DNA of 64,000 nucleotides from positions 17,628,354 to 17,692,353 of the forward strand of contig CM020620.1 in the NCBI GenBank assembly GCA_009829735.1, given 5' to 3'. Made by a program: the position numbers and the translations under genes. Source of the stretch: Pyropia yezoensis. Its lineage: Eukaryota > Rhodophyta > Bangiophyceae > Bangiales > Bangiaceae. Positions 33,427-58,113 of this stretch are shown piece by piece. The notes below the pieces were generated by a model that made no database searches, was not told the DNA's origin, and was given only the letters and a program-made list of their open reading frames with translations. Positions within the stretch are counted from its first letter, which is position 1. Each line of letters starts with the position of its first letter.

Positions 33427-33445
33427 TGGTGGAGCAGCAGGGGAC
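33427..33445 (+). other. Primer-binding site of B
   Basis: TGGTGGAGCAGCAGGGGAC begins two bases after the 5' LTR. It is the complement of a tRNA 3' end including CCA (acceptor 3' strand GCTGCTC). Identical 19 bases occur in A and A'. The tRNA identity was not determined. Confidence 0.85.
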
Positions 33446-33543
33446 AGAGTTAAACTTTACCTCCGGGTGCATCCGGGTGCAGGGGGCCCTCTGTCTCAGA
33501 GGAACGGTGGACTTGGACCGTGTCATACGGATCGTCAGCCAAC

Positions 33544-35490: not shown

Positions 35491-38400
35491 CCGTTGGAGC
35501 TGGCCGTCCGAAGCTGAAAACGGCAGTCTCGGCCAAGTGGGCCAAGAGGACGAACCAACCGTGCCGGATACTGCGGCGACCTAAGGGAGTCCGCCCACCT
35601 CGGGTAGGACTCCCCAAGAACGTAAACCCACGTCGGGTCATCGCGGTGCTGACGGGTGAGAACTTCCAGGTGGCTGGACGGGTGCAACTTGCCGCCGGCC
35701 GTGCCTGCTGTGCCCGTATCGTACTTGATACCGGGTCGGGAGCCTCCTTGATACGCAAGTCGCTATTACCAAAGGAGGTGGAGCTCCAACGCTGGCGGTC
35801 TAAAGCTGACCATCTGATCGATATCAATGGTGGGGCACTTCCCATCGTTGGTGCCGTGACCCTACCAACTAGGTTGGGGACCCATGAGGTCGACGTGACC
35901 TATGGTGTAGTTGAGAATATATCGGTACCCCTGCTTCTGGGTACCCCTTATGTCGTAACACAAGTGCCTTTGATTTGTGGCCCTGAGTACTGGGTCAAGT
36001 TGATGAATGGGGAAACTATCCCCATCCTTGGTAAGGGAAAGTCTGTGGCTCCTGTGACAGTCTCACAGTCGAAGCCTGTTTGCTCTGTGAGGGAAGGGTT
36101 TACTGCCACCCTGCGTCTAGCCCGCAATGTCACGTTGCCCCCCAACTCGGTGGCGTTGATGTTGTAACTGATTATACGGGGAACGGGTTGGTGCACCCTT
36201 ACCCCCGTCTTGCTCGAAAGCACCAAGTGCATGTTGCCCTTGGCACGATGGACTCCAAAGCCGGAGTCCCGTGGAGGATCCAGGTGATGAACCTGAGCTC
36301 TTCGCCCCAGTACTTCAAGTCGGGAGCCAAGTTCGGCTATATCGACCAACACGAGGGACCGGTAGTAGCGGTCACCCTCAACGCGGGCGCAAGTAGCGAC
36401 CCGAAGTCCGGAAGGGAGAAGCATCAAGCCAAGTCGGCCGCCTCTCCTCGGCCCCATGTGAACATGGAGGGTGTTCCACCCAGGTTGAGGGTTCAAGTTG
36501 AACGCCTCTTGGACCAATATCGCAAGTTGTGGGATGGTCAATTGGGACTCATGAGAGCCACCCAACACCGGATCGAGTTGAAGCCCGGTGCACCCCCTAT
36601 ACGCCAACAACCGTATAGGGGAGGACCCCGTTCAAGGGCCCTCGTTTAAGAGCAAGTCGCTCGCATGGAGGCCCTCGATGTGATCGAGGCCAGCAACGCC
36701 GAGTGGGCGAGTCCGGTGGTTATCGTCCCCAAAGTTGATGGGACCCCCCGGTTCTGTATCGACTACCGTAAGCTCAACGAGAGCACGGTGAAGGACAGTT
36801 ATCCCCTACCTAGGATGGACGACTGTCTGGACTCCCTGGGGGAGGCGAACGTGTTCTCTACCCTGGACTGTAACGCGGGGTACTGGCAAACTCCCATTGC
36901 CCCGGAGGACAGGCATAAAACTACCTTTACCTGTCACTGTGGTACCTACCAGTGCAAGCGTCTACCGTTTGGTCTGTGTAACGCGCCGGCAACTTTCCAG
37001 CGCGCTATGGACATGATTCTGGCCGGAGTACGGCGGCAGATCTGTCTTGTGTACCTAGACGATATTATTGTGTTCTCCCGAACTCCGGAGGAACACATTG
37101 GCCATCTTGGCCAGGTGCTCAAGCTACTTGCTGACGCCGGTGTGTCACTGAAGGCGAGTAAGTGCCACCTCTTTACTCAAGAGGTGGAATACTTGGGACA
37201 TGTTGTCCGTCCGGGGCGTCTCAGTGTCAACGAGAAAAACTTGAGGGCCATCCGTAAGGCTCAGTACCCCCGGACCCAGACCCAGATGAGGAGCTTCCTC
37301 GGGATGTGTAACGTGTACCGACGTCTCACCAAGGGCTTCGCCAAGGTGGCGAAGCCGTTGAATGAGTTAGTGAGCTCAACGCTACCGAAGAACCTGCCTC
37401 CCCCAAGTCGGGTGGAGCAGGACTCCTTCGAGACTGTTCGGGACCTTCTGCTGAAGCCCCCTATCCTGGCTATTCCCAGGTTGGGAGGCCACTACATCCT
37501 GGATGTGGACGCTAGCTACGACCAACTTGGTTGTGTGTTGCTTCAGCAGCAGCCGGACAAGGAGTAGTTGCCGGTGGGATACTTCAGCAAGGGGCTGAAC
37601 TCGCCGAGAAGAACTACGGAGTCACCGAGTTGGAAGGACTCGCAGTGGTGTGGGCGGTGACGTCACTTCGTCACTACCTAGAGGGTGAGAAGTTCCTCAT
37701 CCGCTGTGACCACCGCGCGTTGCAGTTCATCTTCAAGACGGACTGTAGGAACACTCGCCTCAACCGGTGGATGGTGCGACTGGCCCCGTTCAACTTTGAT
37801 ATTGAGTACCGACCTGGCAGGCGACATGCCCTTGCCGACGGCCTCTCTCGGGTACCTACCGAGGGGCTGGACGCCAACCCAGTCGATGAGGACATCCCCA
37901 TCGTGGGGGTAGTCACGCGCTCGGGTCAGGCGTTGAACCCCGAGGCGCCAGGGAACAAGAAGTACTTGCCCCTGTCCCTGGACGAGGTGGTGAAGGCCCA
38001 GGCCGAGGATCCCTTCTGCAAGTCGCAGAGGGATATTCTGGATACCGTGGCGGAGACGCGGTTCCTTCTGGGAGACGATGGCCTCCTCATGAAGAGGGGG
38101 GTATTCCAGAGGACCGAACAACTTGTCGTCCCCGCATCCCTCAAGGACAGTATCCTTGAGAGGGAGCACAACGCTCCCACAGGTGGACACCTGGGGTCTA
38201 GTAAACTGTACCAGACCCTGAGGACCAGGTACTACTGGCCGTCCATGGTGGTGGACATCTACAGTTGGGTGGCTGCCTGCACAAGTTGTGCACAGAATCG
38301 TCTGATGAAACGGCGGCCTACTACGGCTATGCTATTGTTCCCGGCCAAGGAGCCCTTCGCCGCGTTGGCGATGGATATCCTTGGGCCACTGCCAGTGACC

Positions 38401-39465
38401 GATGAGGGCAACCAGTACCTCCTGGTCATCTGTGACCGCTTCACGAAGCTTACGCGAGCGATCCGACTGGCAGAGATCACGGCCATGTCGGTCGTGTCAG
38501 CCTTCCTAGATCACTGGGTTGCCGCGTATGGCATTCCGGATAGTACACTATCGGACAATGGACCACAATTTGCATCTGTACTGTTTCAGGGAGTGCTGGA
38601 TATGTGGAAAGTTAAGGCAAGCTATGCTACCCCCTACCACCCGCAAACCAACGGGCAGGTGGAGCGCTTCAACAAAACTATTGTTAGGCAGCTGCACCAC
38701 TATGTGAGTGAGCATGTGAAAACGTGGGACCACTACATTTCTATTCTTACCACTGCCTACAATTCGCAGGTTCACTCATCTACCGGGGAAGTACCCCTCG
38801 CTTTTGTGACCCCCCGTGGCGTGCGGTCTATTGCCGTGCGGCGGCCGCTCCCAACTAGGGAGGATGGCGGCAGTACGCCTACTCCTACTGAGAGTAAGGC
38901 GGAGTCCGCTGCTAGGCTTCAAAACCTCATCCCTAAAGTCAGGGCTGAGATGGACAAAGCACAAAAGCGCTACAAGCGTACCTTTGACAAAAAGGTGCGC
39001 AATGCTAAGCATGTCCCCGAGCAGAGTGACTGGGTGCTGGTACACTCACACACCCCAACTGGGGGTAAGTTGGTATTCCAGACGAAGGGGCCGTACCAGG
39101 TCCTTCGTACTGATGGGCGGCGCTTCACCATCGGAAGTGACCAAGGGGTCCGCACAGTGAACGGACAGGACGTGGTCAAAGTTGCACCACCGCCTGCAGG
39201 CGACCCAGCTTGGGCGCGTGCTTTGGAAGCGTGGCGCCTCCCCTCACTGCCGGCGGCCAAACAGGGCCCGCAGGAATACGTGTTCGATAAGTTCATCGAC
39301 CACGGATGGGATGAGGACACTGACCGCCTCATGTTGAGGGTGCGTTGGTTTGGCTACAAAGCCAAGGATGATACGTGGAAGTATGTGGAGGACCTTCCTG
39401 CTGAGAAGGTCCGGGCGTACTGTGCCCGGAATGAGATAGACCCTAACAGCCCTCCCTCAACATGA
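35487..39465 (+). pseudogene. pol: B pol: protease to chromodomain, broken
   Basis: Protease motif DTGSGASLI (near 35729) is intact. The frame shifts near 36155, then hits TAA at 36647-36649 and TAG at 37565-37567, and shifts again near 37600. Between breaks, RT (TLDCNAGYWQT, YLDD), RNase H (DVDASYDQLGC, TELEGLAVVWA, CDHRALQFIF), integrase (HNAPTGGH...C-x2-C; D in AMDILGPLP, D in LSDNGPQF, E in NGQVERFN) and a C-terminal chromodomain (LRVRWFGYKAKDDTW) are all recognisable. Pol starts at the ATGA overlap with gag, in the -1 frame. With two frameshifts and two stops this copy cannot make a full pol product. Confidence 0.9.
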
Positions 39466-39576
39466 GAGAAGGCCGCGCAACGGTGCCAAGAGAGTGCTTC
39501 AAGTCGAAGTGGTACGCAGAGTGGGTTTTAACTACAGCCCTAACCCTCACACTCTCACAACAAAGGCAGCGGCCAA

Positions 39577-41520
39577 CTAGGCACGCATGCTAGACTCCCC
39601 AACACCACGGCCCTTGCCCTCACGTGGAGGCGAGCGGCGAGACCCACGCCGATAACGGTCTCCATTCGTTGGAGGGGCCGGCGGCTCCAAGTCGGACCCG
39701 TCGCGCCCCTCACGGTCGCGCAAGTGGCGACGTCCGCGGCTGCTCTTCTGCTTAGTCTTGCGCGCAAGTTGGCGACGCAGACGCCGGACCGACTCCGACT
39801 CTGACGGAGTGGAGGACTCCGAGTCGGAGTAAGACAACTCGTCTTCCGACACGGAGAGAGAGCGCCGCGAGTGTCGGCGACGACGGCGAGGAGGCGAGTA
39901 TGCCCGGCTCGCGCGACGTTTGCCACGCCCAAGTGGGGCTGGCTGGGGCATAATAGCCCCAATGCGAGCCAACCCGGCCGTCATAAACTCCGCCACCGAC
40001 TCGCAACTCGCGGTCGCCACTGCAGTACGAACGCGCTCCTCAAGTTGAGGAGTCTCGTAACTTTGAAGGGTTGCGGTCGACGCGGCCAACCAGGAAATGG
40101 TGCGCACCAACGTGGTGATCATCATCTCTGAGGTAAGAGGCGTGGGCGGTAACACCAACTTGGGGTATACCGTCAGGAGGGTGGCCCCCAAGTGGGGGGA
40201 CACCGGGGTGGACGACTCAACGGCCACGCTAATCGGGATGTTCCCGTGCGGCTGGTAGGGGACAGGAGGAAGCGGAGGGGCACGCCGAGGTGGCGGGACC
40301 CGGGTGTAACTGCGACCCCGACTTGGGGCCCCCGCAGTGGGTTGAGTCATATGGTCATCATATGAGGGCACGGCCATAACTACGGGCTTGTCCGGGGGTG
40401 GCCCAGTGTGGCGATCCACCCCCGGTGCATACGGGTAGTCCCCGATGCCCAACCCCTCTCGTAGGACCACACGGCCGTCGTGAATTTCACGAGCGACCCA
40501 TACGAACTGGCGAAGTGCGCCGTCGTCCTTGGGCCCTCGAGTGGGGCGGCGCAACTTGTGCTCAATGCTCTCCCACTCGATAAACTTGTGGAGGCGGAGG
40601 ATCTCCTCAAGTAGAGTGAGTTGTCCTGATGAGCACCCCTCAGCAACTAGCTGAGTGGTGAGCTGTTCCAAACCCTGGATAAGCCGGAGGGGGAGATGCC
40701 AGAGCATGCCCCGCCGCTGAACACAAGACACCCAGGTCGACATGACCTCGAGGAGCCACTGGGTGGCCAACATGGCCCACACCAGGTGATCAGGGCCAGC
40801 CGTCATCATGACGGAGCCGAAGTGGTCAAGCAACCGTGGCAGCAACGCCGGGAACCCGTAGGGGACCTCGACTTGAGGCCACCACTCGGGCTTCTTCGGG
40901 TAGTACTGCTCCTTACTGGCAGCAGGCTGCTGAGGAAACTCAAGTTGAGCCGAGGTCACCAAATACGGACCTCGCCGGAAGTCCTTGTCCATCTGCACAT
41001 CAAAGTGATGAGTGTGCGGATCGGCCTCGTGAAGGCACGGGGGGCGAGTTGCCACCGCGTCCCAAGTAAAGGTCGGCAAGTCGCCGGGACCCGGGATAGT
41101 TCCCCCGCGGTCCACCATGGCCTTGGCCCGCTGTATGTCTTCGACCTCCTCGTCGTCCAGGAAGGCAAACTGGTCCGTCCTGAAGCCGGCAGGGAACCCG
41201 ACCCTACGGGGATACTTCTCCCGTAGGCGGTCCCATACCCGACCCATCGCTGCGCCAAGTCGGCCACAGCGAAGAACAGTCAACCCCTCCTCAAAGAGAG
41301 GCCAAGCGGGGTAAAACCACCGCCCCAAGGCCTCACGCGGGACAACTTGTCCCGCCTCCGGGGGAGATCCCGCCGTCAACCCAAAGCCGGGTGACGCGGG
41401 AGTCCCATCCCCCCGAGCGATCGCGGAGCCCCCGCCGGAAGTCCCGGCGGGTGCTGCACCGTAGGAGGTGTCCTCCATGCGCTCGTCAAGAGAGTCCGTC
41501 TCCACTCCCGGGGTCGCCAT
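39577..41520 (-). CDS. B antisense ORF, intact 647 residues, unknown function
   Basis: Minus-strand frame opposite to gag-pol, ATG 41520 (GGCGACCCCGG follows) to TAG 39579-39577, with no break although pol in the same element is destroyed. N-terminus acidic and Gly/Ser-rich; residues ~80-350 globular (RRVGFPAGFRTDQFAFLDDE, EWWPQVEVPYGFPALL, RLLDHFGSVMMTAGPDHLV, WVSCVQRRGMLWHLP); a Pro/Arg linker; then a C-terminal Arg/Ser-rich tail (RRRRRHSRRSLSVSEDELSY) like RS-domain or nucleic-acid-binding proteins. The FGSV...P-x-H...S-x-x-V-x-R-x-G-x-L-x-H-L-P pattern is shared with the A-family antisense protein. No signal peptide, membrane helix or known domain. It ends ~110 bp from the pol stop (39465), tail to tail. 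Confidence 0.75.
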   Translation of the reverse strand: MATPGVETDSLDERMEDTSYGAAPAGTSGGGSAIARGDGTPASPGFGLTAGSPPEAGQVVPREALGRWFYPAWPLFEEGLTVLRCGRLGAAMGRVWDRLREKYPRRVGFPAGFRTDQFAFLDDEEVEDIQRAKAMVDRGGTIPGPGDLPTFTWDAVATRPPCLHEADPHTHHFDVQMDKDFRRGPYLVTSAQLEFPQQPAASKEQYYPKKPEWWPQVEVPYGFPALLPRLLDHFGSVMMTAGPDHLVWAMLATQWLLEVMSTWVSCVQRRGMLWHLPLRLIQGLEQLTTQLVAEGCSSGQLTLLEEILRLHKFIEWESIEHKLRRPTRGPKDDGALRQFVWVAREIHDGRVVLREGLGIGDYPYAPGVDRHTGPPPDKPVVMAVPSYDDHMTQPTAGAPSRGRSYTRVPPPRRAPPLPPVPYQPHGNIPISVAVESSTPVSPHLGATLLTVYPKLVLPPTPLTSEMMITTLVRTISWLAASTATLQSYETPQLEERVRTAVATASCESVAEFMTAGLARIGAIMPQPAPLGRGKRRASRAYSPPRRRRRHSRRSLSVSEDELSYSDSESSTPSESESVRRLRRQLARKTKQKSSRGRRHLRDREGRDGSDLEPPAPPTNGDRYRRGSRRSPPREGKGRGVGESSMRA

Positions 41521-41848
41521 GGCTCTCCCCAAGTTGGGGAGAGACGCCCTGGCTACAGCGGCACGAGACCCGCCTCGAATTGAGGGGGACTCGGATCGTG
41601 GGTAGACGGGTGGCCTCCCCAGCGTGGGGAGGCCCCGTGGAAGGTGAAGGGGAGGTGGTGGTGTTGGTGAAGTGTGAACCGAGGAGAGCAAGCTGCCGAG
41701 TGGGCAAGCTTAAGGAGAGGGGCGGTCAACGTGACCGCCTCCACATCCGCGTTACGTACTCAAGGGGGGGGGACAGCACGTCGCGCCCCCAACGACGAGA
41801 CGTGCGTTTACGCACCCCCTCACAGGGCCGACCGGGTCGGTCGGAACT

Positions 41849-41861
41849 GAGGAGAGGGGAG
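41849..41861 (+). other. Polypurine tract of B
   Basis: GAGGAGAGGGGAG immediately upstream of the 3' LTR, the expected plus-strand primer. Confidence 0.75.
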
Positions 41862-42330
41862 TGTGGCAGTATTGACCCCCAGGTAGGGGGGCAACACGTG
41901 CCATGCAAGGGGCGGCCGGCCACTTGCCTGATCCGTTCCTTCCCCTGCATTGGGGTCCATATTCCCTAAGTTTGGGATAGTTAGCTTAGTAGTAATTCCA
42001 ACTTGGATTTGAGGGTTTTCTGCATTTATCGTCTTGAATTTTCGTGTGGCCAGGTGGGCAGGTGCTGGGGAGGGAGATTCTGAGTGGCGAGATTCTGAGT
42101 GGACCCTGGGGGGATAAGGGGAGGGACAGCGGGGCTTGGCCCTGCGTCCCCGTCCCGACGAAGAAACTGTTGGACCACACACCATCCTCTTGTTTGTCCG
42201 TGGTGGGTTTGCCCCACAACAGGGACAGAGTGTGTGCGACTTGCACTTCTTCCGGTTCCCCCGACACGGGAGGCAGCCCTTGTACACCGCCCCAACTTCG
42301 GTGTCGTGTGCGCAAGTGGTTTTTGCCACA
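41862..42330 (+). repeat. 3' LTR of B
   Basis: 469 bp, ending TTTTTGCCACA, followed by the GTCGG duplication. Differences from the 5' LTR are concentrated in the last 60 bp (seven of about sixteen). Confidence 0.95.
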
Positions 42331-42335
42331 GTCGG

Positions 42336-44309
42336 GGCCGGAAGGTGTACCCGGGGGTTGATGCGGCGTCGGCTCAACCGCGCTCTCCGTGGGGCTTTCC
42401 CCGCGGCAGTCCGGGGTGGCTTGCTCGGGTTACCCCAGCGACCCCGTGTCGTCCTTCCTCTTACTCCTTTCCCGTGCTCGGCCGGGTACCGTCCTCCGGG
42501 GCATCCGAGGGAGGGGGTGCCTCCTCGACTGCCAGTACTCCTCCTGGAGCTTGCTGCCTACCCGGTGCCGGGCTCCGGGCGGGATACCCACCCATGGAGG
42601 CCTTGCGTTCCGCCGCAGCCCGTCGAGACTCCTCCGGGATGAGTGGGCATGCGGACACCCAGTTTTGGGGGTCCCCGCACAACAATACATCCGGACGTGC
42701 CGGCCGTCCCGGGCGTCCGCGTCGGGTTGGCTCCATAGGTCCGGTTGCCTGCCTCGGGCGCCCGAGTGCCCGCCCCTTGGTAGGTGATGGGTCCCGGTGC
42801 CAGCCGGAACATGGACTCCCCCAACCGGTTGGCTCTTCCAGCGATGTGCGGAGGTGCCTCCGTACGTACTGCCCATGTCGGCAGGGGCTGGTGGGGGTTA
42901 CCCGTAACCGGGGCATACCCCGTAGTCCGCACATACGGGACGCGCCGACCCGCTCCCTCGTTGACCTGGAACTGGGTCCCAGCCGGGGCGATGTCCGCTA
43001 CCGTACCATGCTCATCAATCACCGGCGTCGCCGGTAGCAACAGGTGGCCCTGTTGGTCGACTAGAGGTTCATCCTCACCGGTAGGGGGATGTTCGGTCGC
43101 CACCAGTACTGGTGCGGCCTTACGTTCCACCTTCTCTTGCCTCGGTACCGGGGTAAGACTGGGCTTGCCTCCCTCACCCTTGGGCTTCGGGGCCAAGGCA
43201 CATTCCGGGTGTAGAACCCGGTAGGCGTCCCCTAGGGACTTGCACAGATGCATCAGTCGACTGAAGTTCGTCCGCGCCGTATTGGCTCCCCGTGCGGATA
43301 TCCGTACGTAGTTGGGTACTCCTGCGAACAGGATGGCCCGTAGTTCCCCTTCACCGAGGAGCTTCCCCAGCTCGTAGTCGAGCTCTTGGATCCGGCGTCC
43401 AAACATCTCCTAATCCTCCCAGCTCTGGGCGGTGGCAGTGCGAAGGGCCCGATAGTGGTCTTCGCACTTGTCCTCACTGAGGTAGCTGCTAAGCAACTCC
43501 TTCAATATACTACGTTAATCCATGGGGGTGGCTGCAACCCTCATTCCCGGCATCGGGGATGCCTGGCGGAGGATTCCTCGAACCCGCTCGTCAACAAAGA
43601 ACGGGAGGATCTCCAGCGCCAGCCCCTCGTTGACGAGTGCCTTGTCTGCGGCTGCCTTGAAGCTAGTCAAGAAGCCGATGACGGCCAACGGGCGTCCGTT
43701 GGGGCCCCCGAACATAGGGACTCCCTTCATAAGGGTCTGCATAGAGCGAATCGCTCGGTGCGAGGTCGTACGCATCGATTGCGATACGGCAGTGGATCGG
43801 TCCTCCAAACGATAACGTTCGGGAGGCAGTACCGACCTGAAGACTTCGTTGACAATCTCCGTGTCCGCGTCCTGGATATCCAGTCGCTTCGCCAGTTGAT
43901 GAGTGAACTCATTGGACTCCAACCGCTTCAGTAAGCTCACAGTAACCTGCGCTGCCATCGCTTGCATCAGTGACGCTGGAACTTCCGGCGTCGGTGCCTC
44001 GGGTACCCGAGTTGCCTGGCTTCCGTCGTCGAGGGGGTAATGGGAGACGGTACCGTCTCCCCCCATCGCCGACTCTGTTCCGGCGTAAGTGTCCGCCGGA
44101 TCATGTCCGCGGAGCCCGCTCTGGGTGCTCCGAGCTTAGCGCTCCGTATGGCTACGTTCCAGCTCACCCGGCGAGTCGGATCCATAACCCGCCGTGTCCG
44201 GGGGTTGTCCAGGAGTAGCAACACCGGGGTTGACCCTGGTGGCCTCCGAAAGTAGTCCGGCCGGTTCGAACCGTACCGGTGTGGGGGGGACCCGACGGGG
44301 TACCGTCGT
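42336..44309 (-). pseudogene. gag: A' gag2 and 3' part of gag1, between insertions B and A
   Basis: Minus strand. gag1 continues from the A insertion point (44309) to TAG 43412-43410, with an additional TAA at 43517-43515 where A has a Tyr codon. gag2 starts at ATG 43406, three bases after that TAG, and carries the second capsid half (RRIQELDYELGKLLGEGEL) and the SGC... zinc-knuckle region, where an extra T near 42690 shifts the frame. The TAA ending gag2 lies near 42480. The pol start in A' reads ACG where A has ATG. The first part of gag1 is at 55068-55388, beyond element A. Confidence 0.85.
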
Positions 44310-44314
44310 ATGGC

Positions 44315-44677
44315 TGTAGCAATATGGTTGGCCGTATTGTGACCCTAATATTAGGGGGGCTACTTCTAACCCTTCACTTTGAATTTGGGAGTCCGTACTG
44401 GTCACGGTATCTATAAGTTACGTATGACCAGAGGGACTTGCATCTTGGGGTGGAGGGTAGTTAGTAGTGTCTCCGAGGGTTTATAACGAGGGGGCCGGTG
44501 GCGAATCCACCGCCGGCCAAGGTAGAACAACAAACCCCTCCCATTTGGGCTCCCATCTTGGTCCCGTGGCTTGCGCTCCAAGGACAGCAACCTTGGCCTC
44601 CCGGTGACGGTGGTGCCGATCCCCCATGGTGAGCGTTCCCTGAGAGTGGACGTGCGACGGATTCCTATTGTGCTACA
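44315..44677 (+). repeat. 5' LTR of A
   Basis: 363 bp, TGTAGCAATATGG to ATTGTGCTACA. A TATA-like GGTTTATAACGAGG at about 44479-44492 is a plausible core promoter for the sense transcript. Confidence 0.95.
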
Positions 44678-44678
44678 T

Positions 44679-44697
44679 TGGTGGAGCAGCAGGGGAC
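44679..44697 (+). other. Primer-binding site of A
   Basis: TGGTGGAGCAGCAGGGGAC starts one base after the LTR. Identical to the sites of B and A' (A': minus strand, 55594-55612). Confidence 0.85.
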
Positions 44698-44902
44698 GGG
44701 TTTCCGTCACCCTTGTGGTGACGCCGTCTTCGGCCCTCGCACACGGATAGGGATCCGGTCCATTTCTTGTACTCGTGGTGTTGCGACCTGATCGATTGTG
44801 TTGAGCTTTTACCTGTGACTGTTATCTACTGTTACTCTCCCCAATCTACCCCTTCGCTCTCGTATTCGTGGTGATTGTTACGTCGGTTGACTGATTGTGA
44901 CT

Positions 44903-46132
44903 GTGGCTACCCAAGAGACGGGGAACGTTCAAGATGACGGATCGGCGTCGACGCCGACCCCGGAGGTGACTACGGGAACCGGGATCGGGAACCCGATCGA
45001 CAGCATTGAGACGCCAATGCTTTCCGGTGCCGGATCGACGTTTGGCACGGCTCGGACGGCAGGAGGCGGGGGTCCGCCTCAACTGTCATCGACCGACCTC
45101 ACTCCGCCGCCACCTTCACCAGGGGATTCCCTGATGGCATCATTGGCCCGCATCGAGGCCCGGTTTTCCGGACTCGACGCTCGTCAAGAGCGAACGGAGG
45201 ACGCAATGGCAGTGTTGATGTCAACACGCCACACGACGGGACCCCGTCGTGTTCCTCCCGCACCGGTACGGTTCGAACCGGCCGGACTACTTTCGGAGTC
45301 CACCGGGGTTGACCCCGGCGCAGCAACTCCCCGACAGCCCCCGGACACAATTGGGTATGGATCCGACTCGTCGGCAGAGTTGGAACGGAGTCACACGGAG
45401 CGATACGCTCGGAGCACCCGAAGCGGACTCCGCGGACACGACCCGGCGGATACTTACGCCGGTGGAGAGTCTGTCATTGGGGGAGGGGGTACCCTCTCAC
45501 AGTACCCCCACGACGAAGGAGGCCAGGCAACTCGGGTTCCCGAGGTGCCGACGCCCGAAGTACCATCTTCAGTGGTGGAAGCCATGACCGCGCAGGTAAC
45601 TGCGAGCCTACTGAAGCGGATGGAGTCCGATGAGTTTACTCATCAACTGGCTAAGCGACTGGATATCCAGGACACTGACACGGAGATCGTCAACGAGGTC
45701 TTCCGGTCGGTTCTTACTCCGGAACGTTGTCGTTTGGAGGACCGATCTACCACCGTATCGGAATCGATGCGTAATACGTCGCACCGAGCGATTCGCTCTA
45801 TGCAGACCCTTATGAAGGGAGTCCCTATGTTCGGGGGCCCCAACGGACGCCCGTTGGCCGTCATCGGCTTCTTGACCAGCTTCAAGGCAGCCGCGGACAA
45901 GGCGCTCGTCAACGAGGGGCTGGCCCTGGAGATACTTCCGTTCTATGTTGATGAACGGGTGCGAGGCATTCTTCGCCAGGCATCCCCGATGCCGGGAAGG
46001 AGGGTCGCGGCCACCCCCATGGATTACCGTGGGATTCTCAAGGAGCTGCTGAGCAGTTACCTCAGGGAGGGCAAGTGCGAGGACCACTACCGGGCCCTGC
46101 GCACTGCCACCGCCCAGAGCTGGGAGGATTAG
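44903..46132 (+). pseudogene. gag: A gag1 (N-terminal gag), start codon lost
   Basis: Open frame of about 410 codons ending at TAG 46130-46132. The A' copy starts with ATG (55388); A reads GTG at the equivalent codon 44903, so the next in-frame ATG is internal (45134). The first ~200 residues are Thr/Pro/Gly-rich. Residues ~220-410 are the N-terminal capsid half (FTHQLAKRLDIQDTDTEIVN, MQTLMKGVPMFGGPNGRP, IGFLTSFKAAADKALVNEGL). The TAG falls between QSWED and the MFGRRIQELDYEL helix, inside what is one continuous capsid region in the B gag. The same TAG is present in A'. Confidence 0.8.
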
Positions 46133-46135
46133 GAG

Positions 46136-47086
46136 ATGTTTGGACGCCGGATCCAAGAGCTCGACTACGAGCTGGGGAAGCTCCTCGGTGAAGGGGAACT
46201 ACGGGCCATCCTGTTCGCAGGAGTACCCAACTACGTACGGATATCCGCACGGGGAGCCAATACGGCGCGGACGAACTTCAGTCGACTGATGCATCTGTGC
46301 AAGTCCCTAGGGGACGCCTACCGGGTTCTACACCCGGAATGTGCCTTGGCCCCGAAGCCCAAGGGTGAGGGAGGCAAGCCCAGTCTTACCCCGGTACCGA
46401 GGCAAGAGAAGGTGGAACGTAAGGCCGCACCAGTACTGGTGGCGACCGAACATCCCCCTACCGGTGAGGATGAACCTCTAGTTGACCAACAGGGCCACCT
46501 GTTGCTACCGGCGACGCCGGTGATTGATGAGCATGGTACGGTAGCGTACATCGCCCCGGCTGGGACCCAGTTCCAGGTCAACGAGGGAGCGGGTCGGCGC
46601 GTCCCGTATGTGCGGACGACGGGGTATGCCCCGGTTACGGATAACCCCCACCAGCCCCTGCCCACGTGGGCGGTGCGCACGGAGGCACCCCCGCAGATTG
46701 CGGGCCGACCCAACTGGTTGGGGGAGTCCATGTTCCGGTTGACCCAAGGACCCAAGGCCTACCAGGGAGCAGGCACACTGGCGCCTGAGGGAGGCAACCG
46801 CAGCTACGGGGCTACCCCGATGCGAACTCTAGGGGGGACCGGCACGTCCGGATGTATGTTGTGTGGGGATCCCCAAAACTGGGTGTCTTCCTGCCCACTC
46901 ATCCCCGAGGAGTCTCGGCGGGCAGCGGCGCAACGCAAGGCATCCACCGGGGGGTATCCCGCCAGAGCACCCGGACCCGCACCGGGTAGGCAGCCAGCTC
47001 CAGGTGGAGTACTGGCCGTCGAGGAGGCACCTCCTCAGCCGGATGTCCCGGCGGACAGCACCCTACCAAGGGCGGGAAACGAGTAA
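46136..47086 (+). CDS. gag: A gag2 (C-terminal capsid half and zinc knuckle)
   Basis: Intact 316-residue frame whose ATG follows the gag1 stop by three bases (TAG-GAG-ATG) and is in frame with gag1. Starts with the second capsid helix bundle (FGRRIQELDYELGKLL, RAILFAGVPNYVRI), then a Pro-rich linker and a knuckle-like CMLCGDPQNWVSSC in which the usual His is Asn. Stop TAA 47084-47086 is followed after 8 bases by the pol ATG. It could be made by readthrough of UAG or by reinitiation. Confidence 0.8.
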   Translation: MFGRRIQELDYELGKLLGEGELRAILFAGVPNYVRISARGANTARTNFSRLMHLCKSLGDAYRVLHPECALAPKPKGEGGKPSLTPVPRQEKVERKAAPVLVATEHPPTGEDEPLVDQQGHLLLPATPVIDEHGTVAYIAPAGTQFQVNEGAGRRVPYVRTTGYAPVTDNPHQPLPTWAVRTEAPPQIAGRPNWLGESMFRLTQGPKAYQGAGTLAPEGGNRSYGATPMRTLGGTGTSGCMLCGDPQNWVSSCPLIPEESRRAAAQRKASTGGYPARAPGPAPGRQPAPGGVLAVEEAPPQPDVPADSTLPRAGNE

Positions 47087-47094
47087 GAGGAAGG

Positions 47095-50000
47095 ATGACC
47101 GGGGGGCGCTGGGGTTACCTAAGCAAGCCTCCCCGGAGTACCGCGGGGAAAGCTCCACGGAGAGCGCGGTTGAGCCGACGCCGCATCAACCCCCGGGTAC
47201 ACCTTCCGGCCGCGACGACACGGCGTCAGGGGATTGATGACCAACATCCAAGGTTGGGAGGAGAGGACGGGAAGCCCCGTCACATGGAACCAGACAAGGG
47301 CCCTGTTCAGGATGCCCGAGCTACACCGGATATCGGTGTAGGCCACGTACTGCTCACCTTGGAGAACTTCAAGGTATCAGCTACACTGGGGGTTGACCCC
47401 CAGTCGACACGATCGTACTACCCTGTACTGGATACAGGGGCTGGACCCAACTTGATCCGGAAGGATACCCTCCCGGACAAGTGGCTTCCGCGAGTCAGAG
47501 TGACTCGGGGACCCACCATCAAGGACGCGAATGGTCGCCTCATTCGCACGACCGCAGCGATGTCGCTGCAGGTTACCATCGGGGAACTCACCACGGAAAT
47601 CGACTTCCTGGTGTGTGAGACCCTATCGGTGCCCTGCATATTGGGATGCACCTTCATCAACGTTTACGTTGATGCAATCCGGCCGGGCCGGAGGACCGTC
47701 GAGCTACAAGAGGCCGACGGGACGAAGCGAGGACATACGGCTATCGTCAGGGACCTGACGCTACAAGGGAGCCACGTTAACGTGGCTGAGGTGTACGCAA
47801 GCGTCAAGCCGAAGACACTTCGGTTGGCCAAGCGAACTCGCTTTGAGCCGTTGTCGGAGACAGTCCTCCCGGTTAACTGCGACCTCGCAGGCATCTGCAG
47901 AGTCCGGTCCAACCTGCGGACGTACAAGCGCCATGGGTTGACCATGGCCAACGGTCTCATAGACCTCCCAGCAGGAGGGTCGTCCCTCCTAGTGATGGCG
48001 AACTATCGCCGTAAGGCAGTCACCCTCCCGAAGGGAACTATCCTCGGGATTGCCGAGCTCTACGAAGGAGATATCCTTACCCCTGACAAGGAAGGTCAAG
48101 TGGAACCACTTGAGGTGCTGGCGGCCGCCGAGACCACCGAGCGACAGCAACCCGATGACGGGAAGCCTAGCCCATCGGCGGCTCCGGCGGACATGCCGCC
48201 AAAGGACCAAGAAGCCTTGAAGGTACTGGCCGAGGCTGACCTCGACCACCTTACCCCTTCGGTAGCCGAAGGGGTACGACGAATGCTAAGAAAGCATGAC
48301 GTCATGTGGACAGGCGGGGCCTTGGGTACTATTGGGGCAACCCAACATCGTATTGACCTGGTACCAGGCGCACGCCCCGCCCGGTCACAACCGCACCGAG
48401 CGGGACGTATGCAACGAAAGATCGTTGATGGAGAAGTGAAGAGGATGAGTGAAGCTAAGGTGATCCGACCTTCGATGTCGGAGTGGGGCGCCCCAGTCGT
48501 TATCGTACCGAAGAAGGATCAAACCCCTCGGTTTTGCATCGATTATCGACGCCTCAACTTGGTTACCAAGAAAGACTCATACCCTTTACCAAGGATGGAT
48601 GAATGCATCGACTCCCTGGGGGAAGCTACGGTGTTTACCACCATCCACTGCAATGCCGGATACTGGCAGATCCCGGTGGCGGACGAGGATATCCCCAAGA
48701 CGGCGTTCGTCTGTCACAGTGAAGTGTACGAGTTCCTAAGGATGCCCTTCGGATTGTCCAACGCCCCCGCTACATGCCAGCGGGCTATCGACTTTATACT
48801 GTCGGGGGTGAAGTGGCGTAACTGCCTAGTGTACCTCGATGACGTCATCGTCTTCTCGCGTAACATGGATGACCATGTGCAACATGTTGACGAGGTACTC
48901 ACCCTCTCGCGTAACGCCGGGGTAACCCTGCGTCTGAAGAAGTGCGCCTTCTTCCAACAGACGGTCGAGTATCTGGGCCACCAGATAACCCCTGGTAAAC
49001 TAGGGGTACTCGAAGCCAATACCCGGGCACTCCGGGATGCCCGGTTCCCTACCACCCAGACGCAGCTCAAAAGCATCCTGGGAATGTGCAACGTATACCG
49101 ACGGTTCGTCAAGGACTTTGCTCGGATAAGCTAAACCGTTGACGGTTCTTACGAGCAGTACCTTACCCAAGGTACTCCAACCCCCTTCGCCTTGCGAAGA
49201 GGAGGCATTCGAGTCGCTGAAGCGAGCCCTACTGTCCCCACCCGTCCTTGCGTTACCGCATAGACGGGGGACCTTCGTCATCGATGTCGATGCGTGCGAT
49301 ACACAAGTGGGATGCACCCTGTTACAGAAAGAGACGTTGATCGGTTCCGATAACGTTATCTCGGACCTACGTCCGGTAGGGTACTTCAGCCGGACACTCA
49401 ACCCGGCTGAGCGTAACTATAGTGCCACCGAGCGTGAGTGCCACGGGGTTATATGGGCAGTGCAACTGCTCCGTCCATACCTGGAGGGCTCCAGGTTCAT
49501 CGTGAGGTCCGACCACGAACCCCTACGATGGCTCCTCAACCTTGGTGACAAGGATTCCGATAGCCATGGGAGGCTAGCCCGATGGAGGCTGAAGATGGCC
49601 GAGCACGACTACCGTACCGTGTATAAGGCTGGGTCAACCCACCATCTCGGAGACGCGTTGTCTCGCCTCGACACCCCGAGCGGGGATACGCGCCCGGTGG
49701 ACGAGGACATCCCAGTGGTACCGGTGTGCATGGTGGGTAATGCTACCCAGGGTATGGTTGACCATACCATGGCACACCTTGCGTGCCCATTGACCCTCGC
49801 GGACTTCCGCGAGGCCCAGGCCGATGACGATGACTGTAAACGCCATCGTGCTGACCTCCTGGCCGGTACGGCCGGCATCTTCTCCGAGAACGAAGACGGA
49901 CTCATATACCGGCGGGCACCCGCCGGTGGACGACATCAAGTCGTGGTTCCCGTGTCCTTACGGCAAGCCGTCATGGAACGAGAACACGAGAACCCCACAG

Positions 50001-51262
50001 CCGGACACCCGGGGGGTTCACGAATGTTCGCAGCGATGCGAAGGTTCTTCTACTGGCCAGCAATGGCCGTCGACGTGGTCGACCACGTAAGGGGATGCCA
50101 CCCCTGTGCAGGTAACCGCATGAGTCTACATAGGCAGGCGTCTGCCATGAAGCTCTTCCCACCCGATGGGCCCAACGAGCAAGTCGCTATCGACATACTC
50201 GGGCCACTTCCGGTAACGGAAGAAGGGAACAGGTACATCCTGGTCATGTCTGACCGCTTCACTAAGCTGTCACGAGCGGCAGCCATCCCGAATGATACGG
50301 CATACACGATTATGAACGCAGTGGTTGACCACTGGATCAGTGCTTACGGAGTGATGAAGCAACTCCTCTCCGATAACGGAGCAAGCCTTACGTCAGCATT
50401 CTGCACTAAGGTCCTGGGCATGTTCGGTATCGAACCCCGTCGGGCATCCGACTGCCACCCGCAGTCCAACGGGCAGGTGGAGCCGTTCAACCGCACCATC
50501 TTCAAAATGCTACAGTGCTACGTGGCCGAGCACACGAACACTTGGGACAGGCTTCTGTCCGTACTCACCCTGGCATACAATGCCAGGCCACATCGGAGCA
50601 CAAACATCGCTCCGCTGGAGTGGGTCATGCCACTAGGCGTCGGTAACCCGACGCTGCCGCCAGGCAGGTGCACTCGGTATGATACACCGAAAGGCCGCCC
50701 GGCCGAACGTATACACCTAGCTTGGTTGGCCAAGCTATCGTGGATGATTCCTAAGCTCAAGGGTGCCCTTGACAGAACACAACTTCGATACAAGAAAAAC
50801 TTCGACGCCCGACTACGGGTGCGCAACGCTACCCTGATGACAGGTGACTGGGTCTACATCAGACACCAGAAGTTCCGGGGGAACAAGCTCATGCAACTGG
50901 TCAAGGGACCATACCAGATTCTCCACAGAGATGACCACTCTGTTATCTTACACTCCGATACGGAGATCCAACGCATTAGTGTGAATGATGTCACACCTGC
51001 TCCGAAGCCGGAACAGCCTCAGCCGGTACCGGCTGGGTTGCTACATGAAGCTCTTACAACCCACCGGTCAGATGACCCGGTAGGACCGGATGGTATTCCA
51101 TACCAAGTAGAGAGCGTGGTCGGACACACCGACCCGGACCTACCAGGACCCTGGTATGTCAAGGTTATGTGGGTCGGATACGACTCACCCACCTGGGAAC
51201 AGGCGGCGAATATACCCCGCCAACTCCTCATGCCTTACATGAGGCGACGACGCCTACTGTAA
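47095..51262 (+). pseudogene. pol: A pol: protease, RT, RNase H, integrase, chromodomain, one frameshift
   Basis: ATG 47095 opens a 679-codon frame ending at TAA 49132-49134. The rest continues from 49139 to 51262 in another frame; comparison with A' shows one extra base near 49126, between RT and RNase H. Protease DTGAGPNLI (residue ~113) is intact. RT motif A reads TIHCNAGYWQIP: the catalytic Asp is His (codon 48646-48648). YLDD is present near 48835. RNase H (DVDACDTQVG, TEREC, SDHEPLRWLL), integrase zinc motif and D, D, E sites (AIDILGPLP, LSDNGASL, NGQVEPFN) follow, then the chromodomain (VKVMWVGYDSPTWEQAANIP). Confidence 0.9.
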
Positions 51263-51309
51263 CAACCCAACCGACACCGACTTCGGCTGTTGGGGGGTGA
51301 GGCTTATAC

Positions 51310-51435
51310 CTACTAAGTAGAGTGTGACATGGTTACGGCAGACTTAGGCTTCTAAGTGGAATCAGACTTAGGTTTCTAAGTCGATCCAAGCTTAGGCAAC
51401 TAAGTAGAGTCAAGCTTAGATAACTAAGTAAAACC
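51310..51435. repeat. Palindromic CTTAG/CTAAG array between pol and antisense ORF (A)
   Basis: Four ~25-bp units (51341-51435), each a small palindrome: cttaggcttctaag, cttaggtttctaag, cttaggcaactaag, cttagataactaag. It sits in the ~480-bp gap between the convergent stop codons of pol and the antisense ORF. Confidence 0.75.
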
Positions 51436-51740
51436 TGAACCTTAATAAGTTAACTTAAAGGTAAAGGCTAACTTCGATAATATCGAAGTAACTAGGGGGC
51501 TTACACGGGAGGATGACCTCCCCAAGCCAAGACACAAAGTGAGGGAGGATGACCTCCCCAAGCATGAACCAACCGGAAGAAGTTGGATGGGAGGCAAGGC
51601 ACCACTGAGCCAGAAGGGCTACTCCCCAGGGCAGCAAACAGAGGCAAGCAATGCCCCCAGAGGGGATGAGTTTATACTCACTACTACCCGGCCACCATTA
51701 GGGTTACCGGGGTCCTCTCCCTCACAAACAATAGCCCTCC

Positions 51741-54109
51741 TCAGTGGGTAGACCCACTGCCCGAGGGAGGCCACTCACGCGTAAGCGCGTATACCTCCGT
51801 GCTCCACCGGTCGGCAATCTCACGACGGTCAATCACCCGAGTTACCTCGGTACATAGCTGGACGAGGGTGCTGCGGCCAGCCTCCACGTCCTGCAGAGCT
51901 GTCTGGAGGCGGTCAAGCACGCCACCGAAGCAACGCGCTGACCCAACCCGCGCAGCACCTGGGGGGATATCCCCCCAGCTAACAGAGAGACCCTCCCGCA
52001 TTGCACGGGCAACAAGGGCGTCAACGCCCTCATACCAGAGACGGGGACCCCCGTCATGTTGGACAGGGGCGGGAGGTGACACTGGCGCAGCCAGAGGAAC
52101 CACAGGAGCCGACACGGCTACCACCGGAGCCGGTGGCACCTGATACGAGGCCCGGTAGGACCCTACTGAAGGGGCCCCACCGTAAACCCGGCGGGGCTCG
52201 GCCCGACGACGGGACACCTCACGCTCCCCACCCGCAGAGCCCCACTCTCGGGGACGACGGCCAACCGCCGCCGGTATCGGGTTACCGAACCACGGGGCAA
52301 GGACCTGAAGAGGGTCATGGATAACCATGGGAATCCCCGGGTCAGCAACAGCCTCGGTGGACGCCCACCCATGGCAATTGGGCTCACCCGGCTGAGTACG
52401 CCGGATACGCAACGAGTGACGAGGCAAGGGGAAAGCCCCAGCCTGCGGGTCCCGGTACGGGGGAAGGGCCAACACCCCAGCCCAGTTCACGGCATCGTGA
52501 ACAGCCAGCAGAGCCTCGAACTCCCGGGCCAACCCTGTCTTGGCGGCTATCATGTCCACGCCCAACTGCGCGATGTGCCGACGGACACCCGTCGGAAGAT
52601 GAAACAGGCGCCCCTGCCGGCGGACGGACAGCAAGAAGGAGGAAGCCTGCCCAAGGGTAACCTCAAGGGTGAAGGTACCCTGCAACGGGTGGACCGGCCG
52701 GGAGGCCAACACACTCCCGAAGTATCGGAGACAGGAGCCCGTGTCAAACCGGAAAGCAGGGGCGGGTTCCCACCCCTCCTGCCATAGCGGCAAGCGCACG
52801 GGAGTGTATACCGGCGCACGACCGTTGCCGGTCTGCAACGCACACGTTATATCCGTGCGAAACGCATCCGCCATGACACCATGGTTACGTCGCCAGCTCG
52901 ACGCCGACTTCAACCCTGCCATAGGAGGGTAGGGAGCCGTCAACGACAGATACGTAAATACCCCCGGGTAATAGTCAAAGTCGGGATACCGACCGGTACT
53001 GCCCACCGTCTCCCCAAACGCAACCGGCTCCGCCGCCGCCGCAATCCCCCGAGCACTAGCCGGGTAGTCAACCTCCCGCGGCAACGCGGGGGCAATCAGG
53101 TCGCATACCCCGAAGGCGGGGTCGAGGTAGACCACACTCCGTCCCACCCGAGTGCGCCAGAGCTGCGCATGCCGGTCGTCCGGCTGACTCAGGATCCAAT
53201 GGTGTTCCACTCGCACCGCGTTCGGCTGGTTGACCAGCCGCACCAACTCCCGCTCCCAACTCGGGTCCACCTTGATGCGCCGGGAGGACTCTCCACGGGG
53301 ATGCGGCAGGTGGAAGTCCACCCGCATCCGCCCATCGAGCTCCATTGACTCTTGCACAGTAAGGCCTTGAACCCGAGCCACCAAGTCGGTCATCGACATG
53401 GCGGGTTGACCCGCCGCCACGGCGACGCCGCCACCCAACGGGGCAACCCGGGCAGGATCAGGAAGAATCGGGGGCGCCGGGGGGGGCCCCACCGGCAGAT
53501 GAGCAGGCGCCGGAGGTGCACGGGGCCGAGGAGGAAGAAGAAGGGCGGGCACCCGCCCGGAGAAACTACCGGAGTCCACTGCCATCGGTGTCGACCCACC
53601 TTGACCACCAGACGCCCGCGGCACCGCGGGCAGAGCAACGCCGCCACCCGAGCTCGACGTGGGCACCTCGGGGGCAGCAGGGGTAGACCCGTCTCCCGCA
53701 GCCGCGGATGAACCACCTGGGCGGGCACCCAAGCCGTCTTGACCCACCGTCCCGGTCGGGGTGCCACCATAACCGCCCGACACGCCGGCGACGCCGTCTT
53801 GAGGTTGAACGGCGCCGGCACCGGCGACAGGAGCCATCCGGGCCGCCGGAGGAGTAGGGGTAGACGCAGCAGCTACCCGCGGTTGCCCGCCACCCGACGG
53901 AGCCGTCGTGCCGCTGCACACGGACGACATACGCCCGGAGCACCGTCCGGAGCCACACGAACGGTCACCCGGTCGTCCTCGTCCTCGGACGAGCTCGCTA
54001 GGAAGCACTCTGCGGCGGTAGCGGAGACGGGAACGTCATCCACCATCACCTCTTCCCCCTCCTCAGGCAGGAGGTCGTCCTCACCCCCGGGTACCTGGGG
54101 GTCCGACAT
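51741..54109 (-). pseudogene. Antisense ORF of A, one frameshift
   Basis: Minus strand, ATG 54109 (same start context as in A') to TGA at 51741. One base is missing near 53941, so the first ~56 codons (acidic MSDPQVPGGEDD...) are in a different frame from the remaining ~730, which are fully open to the end. Total length 2369 against 2370 in A', i.e. no other indels. Domains are as in the A' copy; residue 621, nonsense in A', is a normal Arg codon here. A TATA-like GTTATAAGCGCGG lies ~110 bp upstream (near 54210-54225). The purine tract and 3' LTR follow ~470 bp further upstream of the TATA-like box. Confidence 0.8.
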
Positions 54110-54687
54110 GGTGCAACTGGGATAGCAGGGGCGCCCCGTGCAGAAAAGCCGAGGCCGGCTCGACCCGGTACAGAGAACGCTCGCACGGACGAGCCAGGGA
54201 AGCGCGGGCAACCGCGCTTATAACCACACAGCTGGGCACCAGCGATGAGGAAGCGCGGGACGACCCGCGCCAGCCGAGCTACGAGGGCGCTCCCGCCAGG
54301 CACCTGGGGCGGGGCCTCGCTCCCCCCACACGGAGTAATCAAGGGGGGGTCACCCCCAACCGCCCCCACGCAACGCGGGCAGCCCCCGCCCCCCACTCAA
54401 TCGTCCACACGAGAGGGGCCCCCCTACCACCAGGCACCTGGTGGCGGATCCGCTTGCACCACCCCTCGGAAAGGGGGGTCGTGAACAGAAACCCGCATCG
54501 GGAATCTAACAGTCCGGAAAACGGATCGTGTGTGTACCACACAAAGGGGGGCACCCCCCTCAGACAACCTCGAAAAGGGGTGTCTGTCGCGACAGGGCGC
54601 AAAGCCCCACCCGACTGGTAAACGGTCACGCGACCCACTTACATTCGGAAACCCGAATGCGACTCGACCCGAGGACGGGCCCAATCT

Positions 54688-54699
54688 AAGGGGGGGATA
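54688..54699 (+). other. Polypurine tract of A
   Basis: AAGGGGGGGATA directly before the 3' LTR. The A' equivalent (reverse complement) is at 25523-25534. Confidence 0.75.
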
Positions 54700-55062
54700 T
54701 GTAGCAATATGGTTGGCCGTATTGTGACCCTAATATTAGGGGGGCTACTTCTAACCCTTCACTTTGAATATGGGAGTCCGTACTGGTCACGGTATCTATA
54801 AGTTACGTATGACCAGAGGGACTTGCATCTTGGGGTGGAGGGTAGTTAGTAGTGTCTTCGAGGGTTTATAACGAGGGGGCCGGTGGCGAATCCACCGCCG
54901 GCCAAGGTAGAACAACAAACCCCTCCCATTTGGGCTCCCATCTTGGTCCCGTGGCTTGCGCTCCAAGGACAGCAACCTTGGCCTCCCGGTGACGTTGGTG
55001 CCGATCCCCCTTGGTGAGTGTTCCCTGAGAGTGGACGTGCGACGGATTCCTATTGTGCTACA
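54700..55062 (+). repeat. 3' LTR of A
   Basis: 363 bp, ending GTGCTACA, followed by the ATGGC duplication. Differs from the 5' LTR at about five positions. Confidence 0.95.
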
Positions 55063-55067
55063 ATGGC

Positions 55068-55388
55068 GTGCTGACATCAGCACCGCCATTGCGTCCTCCG
55101 CTCTTGACGGGCGTCGAGCTCGGTGAACCGGGCTTCGATGCGAGCCAATGATGCCATCAGGGAGTCTCCTGGTGAAGGTGGCGGCGGCGTGAGGTCGGCA
55201 GAGGACAGTTGCGGCGGTCCGCCGCCCCCGGCCGTCCGTGCCGTACCAAACGTCGATCCGGCACCGGAGAGCATCGGCGTCTCAATGTTGTCGATCGGGT
55301 TACCGATCCCGGTTCCCGGGTTCAGCTCCGGGGTCGGCGTCGACGCCGATCCGTCACCTTGAACGTTCCCCGTCTCTTGGGTAGACAT
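55068..55388 (-). pseudogene. gag: A' gag1, N-terminal part
   Basis: ATG 55388 (MSTQETGNVQ) reads toward the A insertion and breaks off at the ATGGC duplication. It continues at 44309 on the far side of A. It preserves the start codon that A lost. Confidence 0.85.
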
Positions 55389-55593
55389 AGTCACAATCAG
55401 TCAACCGACGTAACAATCACCACGAATACGAGAGCGAAGGGGTAGTTGGGGGAGAGTAACCGTAGATCGCAGTCAAACGCAACTACTCAAAACAATCGAA
55501 CAGATCGCAGCACCACGAGTACAAGAAAAGGACTGGATCCCTATCCGTTTGCCAGGGCCGAAGACGGCGTCACCACAAGGGTGACGGAGACCC

Positions 55594-55612
55594 GTCCCCT
55601 GCTGCTCCACCA
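55594..55612 (-). other. Primer-binding site of A'
   Basis: Plus strand gtcccctgctgctccacca, the exact complement of the A and B primer sites, one base inside the A' 5' LTR. Confidence 0.85.
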
Positions 55613-55613
55613 A

Positions 55614-55976
55614 TGTAGCACAATAGGTATCCGCTGCACGTCCACTCTCAGGGAACACTTGCCAGGGGGAATCGGCACCAACGTCACCGGGAGGCCAAGG
55701 TTGCTGTCCTTGGAGCGTAAGCCACGGGACCAAGATGGGAGCCCAAATGGGAGGGGTTTGTTGTTCTGCCTTGGCCGGCGGTGGATTCGCCACCGGCCCC
55801 CTCGTTATAAACCCTCGGAGACACTACTAACTACCCTCCACCCCAAGATGCAAGTCCCTCTGGTCATACGTAACTTATAGATACCGTGACCAGTACGGAC
55901 TCTCAAATTCAAAGCCAAGGATTAGAAGTAGCCTCCCTAATATTAGGGTCACAATACGGCCGACCATATTGCTACA
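55614..55976 (-). repeat. 5' LTR of A'
   Basis: 363 bp, same termini as the 25160 copy and about nine differences from it, followed by the GTAGG duplication. Confidence 0.95.
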
Positions 55977-56345
55977 GTAGGGCGGGAGAGTTGGTTGCCG
56001 ATCAGCGGCTCCCACTCCCATTGAGGGGGAATTGGCGACAGCGACCCCAATTGGGGTAGCTGTCCGCCCAAGACCCCCAATTCACTCCAATTTGGGGTAC
56101 CGTCGAGGAATATGAGGGCGATCAGCGACGGCCTCGAGGGGTCGCCCAAGAAAGCAAATGAACTTTGGCTTTGCGTATCCACCCGGGCTTGGCCTGCATA
56201 CTCTGTACACCGAAGAGCAGAGCGGAAGAGGGCGCGACACCTGGTCAGTTGCTCCATCGTTTGTGTGCTGCGAGGCGCACGCTTTTGGTCACCTTTCAGG
56301 CAACGAAAATTTACTGGTGGTTCAGTGACGAACCGCTACACAGGG

Positions 56346-57903: not shown

Positions 57904-57908
57904 GGTAC

Positions 57909-58113
57909 CCTCGAAGTGTTGGGCGAGATCCTGAAGCGCCTCCAGGGCTCCCTGGACTCGGTTGACCAGGGGCATAGCACCCTGCTAGACTTACGTGCCG
58001 CGGTCTGTGCCGTCGTGGCCCGACGTGCCGTGGCGGAGAATTTGATCTCCTCGGTCTACGCGATAACGCGTGAGTGGCCCCAGTCACTGGGGCGCTCCCC
58101 TCCTCGGTGGTGA
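57909..58113 (+). pseudogene. Antisense ORF of element C, part 3 (C-terminus)
   Basis: Helical C-terminus (EILKRLQGSLDSVDQGHSTL, then ISSVYAITREWP) matches LDRLQTALQDVEAGRSTL and MEVYALTCEWP at the end of the A' antisense protein. Stop at 58111-58113. Confidence 0.75.

Follow-up and report, generated by a model that had tools for sequence, protein, structure and literature searches.

A 64,000-nucleotide stretch of the genome of the red alga Pyropia yezoensis (hereafter the window; contig CM020620.1 of assembly GCA_009829735.1) contains four Ty3-type insertions that are nested one within another and are here named A', A, B and C, the last of which is a remnant. In A', A and B, a long open reading frame (ORF) lies opposite gag-pol, between the pol stop codon and the 3' long terminal repeat (LTR). 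This antisense ORF is concluded to be a coding, selected accessory gene of Ty3/Gypsy-type elements in a Pyropia-type red alga, a reading to which we assign a probability of about 0.93. Its protein product is kept by purifying selection on the amino acid sequence. The gene is present in at least three families, namely A together with the A2 subfamily, C, and the more distant B, a division that fits better than the two chromovirus families proposed in an earlier note on this DNA. A-type relatives also exist in a second Pyropia species, P. vietnamensis. The strong evidence for a gene is provided by the genomic copies and by the ratio of nonsynonymous to synonymous substitution rates (dN/dS), rather than by the length of the ORF.

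Selection on the antisense frame

Copies were collected from the 107.5-Mb genome, which was searched as 11 contigs (C1, C2 and C3 measure 43.6, 34.3 and 29.4 Mb, and the window lies in C3). For the A and B ORF regions, the best 40 DNA matches each were scored, and 39 each beyond the query were fetched. A' fell outside the best 40 matches for A and was included manually; with A and A' the 39 made 41 A copies, and with B the other 39 made 40 B copies. Scoring was confined to the best candidates, so that all copy counts are minimum figures.

Pooled over copy pairs, the ORF frame has a dN/dS of 0.435 for A (41 copies) and 0.398 for B (40 copies), the lowest of the six frames in both sets; in the remaining frames the ratio is 0.51-1.63 for A and 0.48-1.84 for B. 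Differences that change a stop codon are also fewest in the ORF frame (809 versus 3089-4996 for A, 859 versus 1634-4130 for B). The earlier note had suggested measuring dN/dS across many copies, and the value obtained on the antisense frame, about 0.4 and not near 1, favors its reading of a conserved ORF. Within the A core, dN/dS falls as low as 0.17 (codons 401-500); the N-terminus of the antisense protein evolves fast and the core more slowly. Comparisons between families and subfamilies gave 0.43 for A versus C (bootstrap interval 0.35-0.50, at a dS of about 1.1), 0.40 (0.33-0.48) for A2-type versus C and 0.44-0.55 for three A copies versus A2-type, and two B pairs gave 0.42.

A hidden gene on the sense strand was considered and rejected: no plus-strand ORF of at least 250 aa starts opposite the A or B antisense ORF, and the five other frames carry more stop changes. 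Opposite-strand frames of 369-372 codons in A2 copies, 299 in A' and 298 in one C copy speak against this rejection but are provisionally taken as mirror effects of GC-rich coding DNA, as is an opposite-strand frame with a dN/dS near 0.5.

Within the window, the longest frames observed span 620 (A'), 764 (A) and 647 (B) codons, versus maxima of 599, 581 and 476 among 2000 first-order Markov sequences of the same composition. Because the GC content is 64-67%, ORF length alone is moderate evidence only; a pure chance ORF is ruled out by dN/dS and the genome copies. Only B's antisense copy is intact in the window, A' and A being disabled copies. The earlier note correctly placed and oriented the long antisense ORFs of A', A, B and C and recognized that the B copy is fully open in an element whose pol frame is broken. 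Its description of the A' and A copies must be revised, as the former contains an in-frame stop and the latter a frameshift. The single net base by which it separated A from A' is a length difference only, and 169 nucleotide differences are found over the 619 codons compared. The C pieces, split apart by the A' insertion, encode the same protein (31-74% identity to A' or to the P. vietnamensis protein P0004).

Genome copies and linkage to pol

Frame intactness was counted over copies chosen by their DNA similarity to the query, irrespective of frame. Of 41 A copies, 23 keep an intact frame from the ATG to the stop; internal stops are present in 14 and a net frameshift in 3, and 1 is without a stop at the usual place. 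Among the B copies, 24 of 40 are intact and 16 have internal stops; there are no indels, and ORF length is identical in all 40. The full frame is kept in more than half of the sampled copies of either set, in line with the earlier note's expectation.

Protein-ranked lists favor open copies and are used descriptively only. Among the matches listed, a stop interrupts the A core (306 aa) in 18 of 129 (hand count), the A2 core in 2 of 129 and the B core in 0 of 120; the stop-to-stop frame of A2 reaches at least 816 codons in 110 of 129. Well over a hundred copies are listed for the A type, and likewise for the B type. The longest frames are not taken at face value, because runs of N inside some elements may read as open. 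Such runs inside repeat elements are seen in two fetched loci (L093:5061-5560 and L096 from 1766). For the B family, 73 of the 120 matches listed (hand count) score alike, at 773.3 bits over the 336-aa core, and these identical scores suggest a recent burst of near-identical copies.

Linkage between the two genes was read from 129 pol matches and 129 A2 antisense matches listed, both protein-ranked. At least 50 pol-antisense pairs lie within 8 kb of each other, and all 50 are on opposite strands; 47 of them are spaced 4.0-4.3 kb apart (typically about 4.14 kb), and the antisense frame is at least 815 codons long in 43 of these 47. Where the pol frame reaches at least 1400 codons, the antisense frame is 805 codons or longer in 26 of 28 pairs. 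The other 82 pol matches have no partner among the matches listed, which does not mean that the gene is missing. Four such loci were opened and showed, respectively, a 909-codon frame, a broken frame, a region cut by a 500-N gap, and just 39 bases of the region followed by other DNA. Tandem elements were considered for same-strand pol pairs 5-10 kb apart and set aside; the one pair opened holds a 500-N gap, and pairs of this kind may reflect N gaps rather than tandem elements.

A protein family without recognized domains

The A and B proteins share a block of about 90 residues at 27% identity (pairwise BLASTP E 2e-8), and BLASTP thereby recovered the common FGSV...HLP block that the earlier note had picked out. 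The core-to-core local score is 89, versus a mean of 36 and a maximum of 58 for shuffled sequences, none of which (0 of 1000) reaches it. Profile-profile comparison (hhalign, E 5e-5) gave a probability of only 66.5%. A and B are homologous over this one block. The A and C antisense proteins are 51% identical over 759 codons. The frames read measure 850 codons and at least 875 in the C family and 909 in the A2 subfamily, and the start residues M-S/G-x-P are common to A, A2, C and the protein P0007.

The searches for relatives of A and B scored the best 8000 candidates (those with the most shared words). The A protein has seven database relatives, five from P. vietnamensis (43-52% identity for the four with a reported value) and two from other contigs. 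One relative of the B protein was found, from short contigs, and a search limited to the B core returned no further ones.

No credible family match of the antisense proteins was found in Pfam, PHROGs, NCBIfam or PDB. The A-type profile gave a single PDB match, to a major histocompatibility complex protein (E 0.18), and B only PDB matches above E 1; NCBIfam gave no match to the antisense protein, and a tblastn search of plasmids gave none. DUF6214 was matched at E 0.014 in one of eight A-type members, and a PHROGs tail-protein match of B (E 0.08), located in the Arg-rich part, was taken as chance. A membrane-like segment is absent from five proteins analyzed (maximum Kyte-Doolittle 19-residue mean 1.2-1.6). 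In three of five proteins (B, C and P0004), the most basic 30-residue window follows the core.

Anatomy of the nested elements

A' interrupts remnant C, both on the minus strand, and B and A, both on the plus strand, are inserted inside A' (Table 1). The earlier note's view of A and A' as separate insertions is refined in that A' is one element enclosing the other two. The LTRs of A and A' are 363 bp long and begin and end with TG...CA; 5 of 363 positions differ between the LTRs of A and 9 of 363 between those of A'. Target-site duplications of 5 bp were read by eye in the flanks (ATGGC for A, GTAGG for A', GTCGG for B). The pol order of reverse transcriptase (RT), RNase H and integrase is of Ty3 type in A and B, and A pol matches Ty3 Gag-Pol (7q5b, E 1e-40). 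The C-terminus of the B integrase is a chromodomain, with PDB matches to a heterochromatin protein chain (9baq, E 5.6e-5) and to Clr4 (E 2.2e-4) and an E of 0.011 to Pfam Chromo, which falls short of the Pfam cut-off. For the A integrase C-terminus, the match to a chromodomain is weak (Pfam Chromo E 0.23; best PDB match chloroplast SRP43, E 0.45), and the A integrase aligns with that of B nearly to its end. Chromodomain support for the chromovirus reading of the earlier note is clear for B and weak for A. Where pol and the antisense ORF of element A converge, a 24-base tandem repeat occupies 51343-51430, between their stop codons.

Table 1 Features of the nested elements and relatives of their antisense proteins
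Feature	Position or accession	Strand	Remarks
Element A, LTR to LTR	44315..55062	+	LTRs 44315-44677 and 54700-55062
Element A', with B and A nested inside	25160..55976	-	LTRs 25160-25522 and 55614-55976
Element B, LTR to LTR, inside A'	32955..42330	+	Ends read by eye
A antisense ORF region	51741..54109	-	ATG 54109; one-base deletion near 5' end; open only 51741-54035
A' antisense ORF	26086..28455	+	ATG 26086; in-frame stop 27946-27948, further frame to 28455; A' itself on minus strand
B antisense ORF	39577..41520	-	647 aa, intact from ATG (41520) to stop
Remnant C antisense ORF, first piece	24489..24984	+	Frame change near 24776; 52-74% identity to A'
Remnant C antisense ORF, second part	56185..58101	+	Matches 56185-57069 and 57814-58101; 31-48% identity
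B-protein block homologous to A	40564..40833	-	Residues 230-319
A'-protein block homologous to B	27463..27723	+	Residues 460-546
A gag region	44897..47086	+	Two ORFs in one frame, stop between
A pol	47095..51262	+	Protease, RT, RNase H, integrase
B gag	33520..35490	+	CCHC zinc knuckle
B pol pieces	36665..39465	+	RT, RNase H, integrase, C-terminal chromodomain; broken frame
Remnant C, C-terminal end of pol	58534..58740	-	Convergent with C antisense ORF; 68% identity to residues 639-707 of A pol piece 49139-51262
P. vietnamensis hypothetical proteins homologous to A type	MMPV_009242, _008948, _008454, _001347, _008444		Compared by protein sequence

Comparison with known antisense genes

The layout resembles that of the plant Tat/Retand lineage (Grande gene23, RIRE2, Retand), in which genes antisense to gag-pol also lie between pol and the 3' LTR and are conserved across families; a nuclear or DNA-binding role has been proposed for them (PMC11963269 and PMC7264820). 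An antisense promoter of its own and a nuclear product are reported for the Grande gene. In 97% of Retand clusters, antisense ORFs with TRP28 are present, for which DNA binding is proposed, and TRP28 appears only in flowering plants (PMC11963269). PMC7264820 reviews the antisense ORFs of Grande, RIRE2, Retand and PvRetro13 and names the fungal element Boty. In contrast to Retand, the TRP28 domain (PF04195) is unmatched in the A', A and B proteins (E up to 1) and in eight A-type proteins (E up to 5), and with no Pfam match, membership in the TRP28 family was rejected. HMMER filters drop most matches above about E 0.1, and this test rests on direct Pfam scans. Furthermore, Retand is described as a non-chromovirus, whereas the algal elements are of Ty3 type, and B among them has been shown to carry a chromodomain; chromoviruses do occur in red algae (PMC3605345).

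Outside plants, Boty, an LTR element of Botrytis cinerea, also has an antisense accessory ORF and is likened here by description only (PMC7264820). HBZ and APH-2 of the human T-cell lymphotropic viruses are antisense-encoded nuclear regulators that offer an analogy of layout only (PMC11963269), and unlike the algal elements they belong to human retroviruses. A literature search, with most subscription papers outside it, recognized no paper describing this antisense ORF in red algae, and the available parts of PMC2774666 and PMC5408684 added nothing on antisense ORFs.

Proposed role and alternatives

By analogy with these systems, the antisense protein may be a nuclear regulator, a mechanism for which we consider the odds to be about even. 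A regulator, an RNA-binding partner and a self-limiting antisense product were the candidate roles named in the earlier note. Transcription would start from a promoter between the antisense ATG and the 3' LTR, or within the LTR, and would converge with that of gag-pol. The product would be a soluble accessory factor that opens with an acidic stretch and has a linker rich in Pro, Ala and Gly and a conserved core about 300 residues long; in several families the core is followed by a basic segment. The basic segments and the analogy with Grande gene23 suggest that the protein would enter the nucleus, and it would most likely act there on DNA, RNA or the integration complex of the element itself, a role also proposed for the Grande and Retand antisense genes.

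Several observations tell against this explanation. Near-neutral stretches are found in both ORFs (A codons 101-200, dN/dS 0.85; B codons 401-500, 0.75), and a recent C pair, at 0.72, is uninformative, its interval of 0.37-1.44 spanning 1. Between A and A', dN/dS is 0.15-0.20 in pol, 0.27-0.31 in gag and 0.45 (0.34-0.60) in the antisense ORF; selection on the antisense protein is real, yet weaker than on pol. In the two A-type proteins among the five, the most basic window falls within the core. No promoter signal was found upstream of the antisense ATG, where 100-base windows from LTR to ATG diverge by 0.018-0.085 versus 0.012-0.069 in the ORF. Finally, nuclear entry and nucleic-acid binding are inferred from composition and analogy only.

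The function could instead reside in the antisense transcript, which would pair with genomic RNA to form double-stranded RNA that limits copying, the frame being incidental. By layout, any mRNA of the ORF would be antisense to the 3' portion of the genomic RNA, and the idea has been raised for plant elements (PMC7264820). An incidental frame, however, predicts a dN/dS near 1, and values of 0.40-0.45 are seen in the ORF frame, along with the lowest number of stop changes; moreover, stop-to-stop frames of 800-909 codons persist in families whose proteins are 51% identical. Selection on amino acids argues against a purely antisense-RNA role, which is judged very improbable; an added RNA role may exist alongside the protein. 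Hardly less improbable is that the ORF was captured from the host, or is a passenger frame, and does nothing for the element. Extra ORFs are known to arise by capture (PMC7264820, PMC11963269), but the eight distinct homologs returned (seven for A, one for B, from searches that scored the best 8000 candidates) are Pyropia hypothetical proteins or contigs with no recognized host gene among them, and the ORF is common to families with dS above 1, its position kept.

That the ORF encodes a structural or particle protein, either a second Gag-like or an envelope-like one, is improbable as well. Like gag, the antisense ORF evolves faster than pol, and disordered linkers and basic tails are also found in Gag proteins. 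Against a Gag, five comparisons of the antisense proteins with A or B gag gave no score above shuffles (B core versus the second A gag ORF was left out), and no zinc knuckle or other Pfam family was found in the antisense ORFs. An envelope-like ORF was rejected on its antisense orientation, off the genomic sense strand, and on the lack of a membrane-like segment, no 19-residue window exceeding 1.6 in the five proteins. An anti-silencing or integration-targeting factor, which would counter host silencing or steer the element's integrase, is unlikely but agrees with the many listed copies that have open frames, with the contrast between a fast-evolving N-terminus and a slower core, and with the occurrence of the gene alongside a chromodomain integrase in B. 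This proposal has no known-family match behind it in the searches made and is purely inferred.

Other features of the window

Outside the nested elements, an ORF at 17344-18408 (minus strand) matches Plant_tran / DDE_Tnp_4 transposases (E 9e-56), and an ORF at 15141-16580 (plus strand) contains a NAM-associated domain (E 2e-7); the region 15141-18408 looks like a DNA transposon that we take to be of PIF/Harbinger type. A 1060-aa ORF at 7652-10834 (minus strand) has only a weak AAA_19 match (E 0.003), and two adjacent 171-base direct repeats, 80% identical, occupy 4157-4498.

Significance

An antisense accessory gene is a known kind of gene in LTR elements; this protein family and its red-algal occurrence were not found in the literature searched. 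Genes that lie antisense between pol and the 3' LTR pose a puzzle best described in flowering plants, and a red-algal family under measurable purifying selection provides an independent case for asking what such genes do. It also suggests that Pyropia "hypothetical proteins", the MMPV entries for example, may be encoded by transposons. A broader proposal, that red-algal chromoviruses independently acquired or anciently inherited an antisense nuclear regulator with no known relatives that controls transcription, silencing or integration, is a tentative one that we regard as doubtful. If it is true, antisense accessory genes would be a solution to which LTR elements have come repeatedly, in plants, in fungi, in retroviruses and in red algae.

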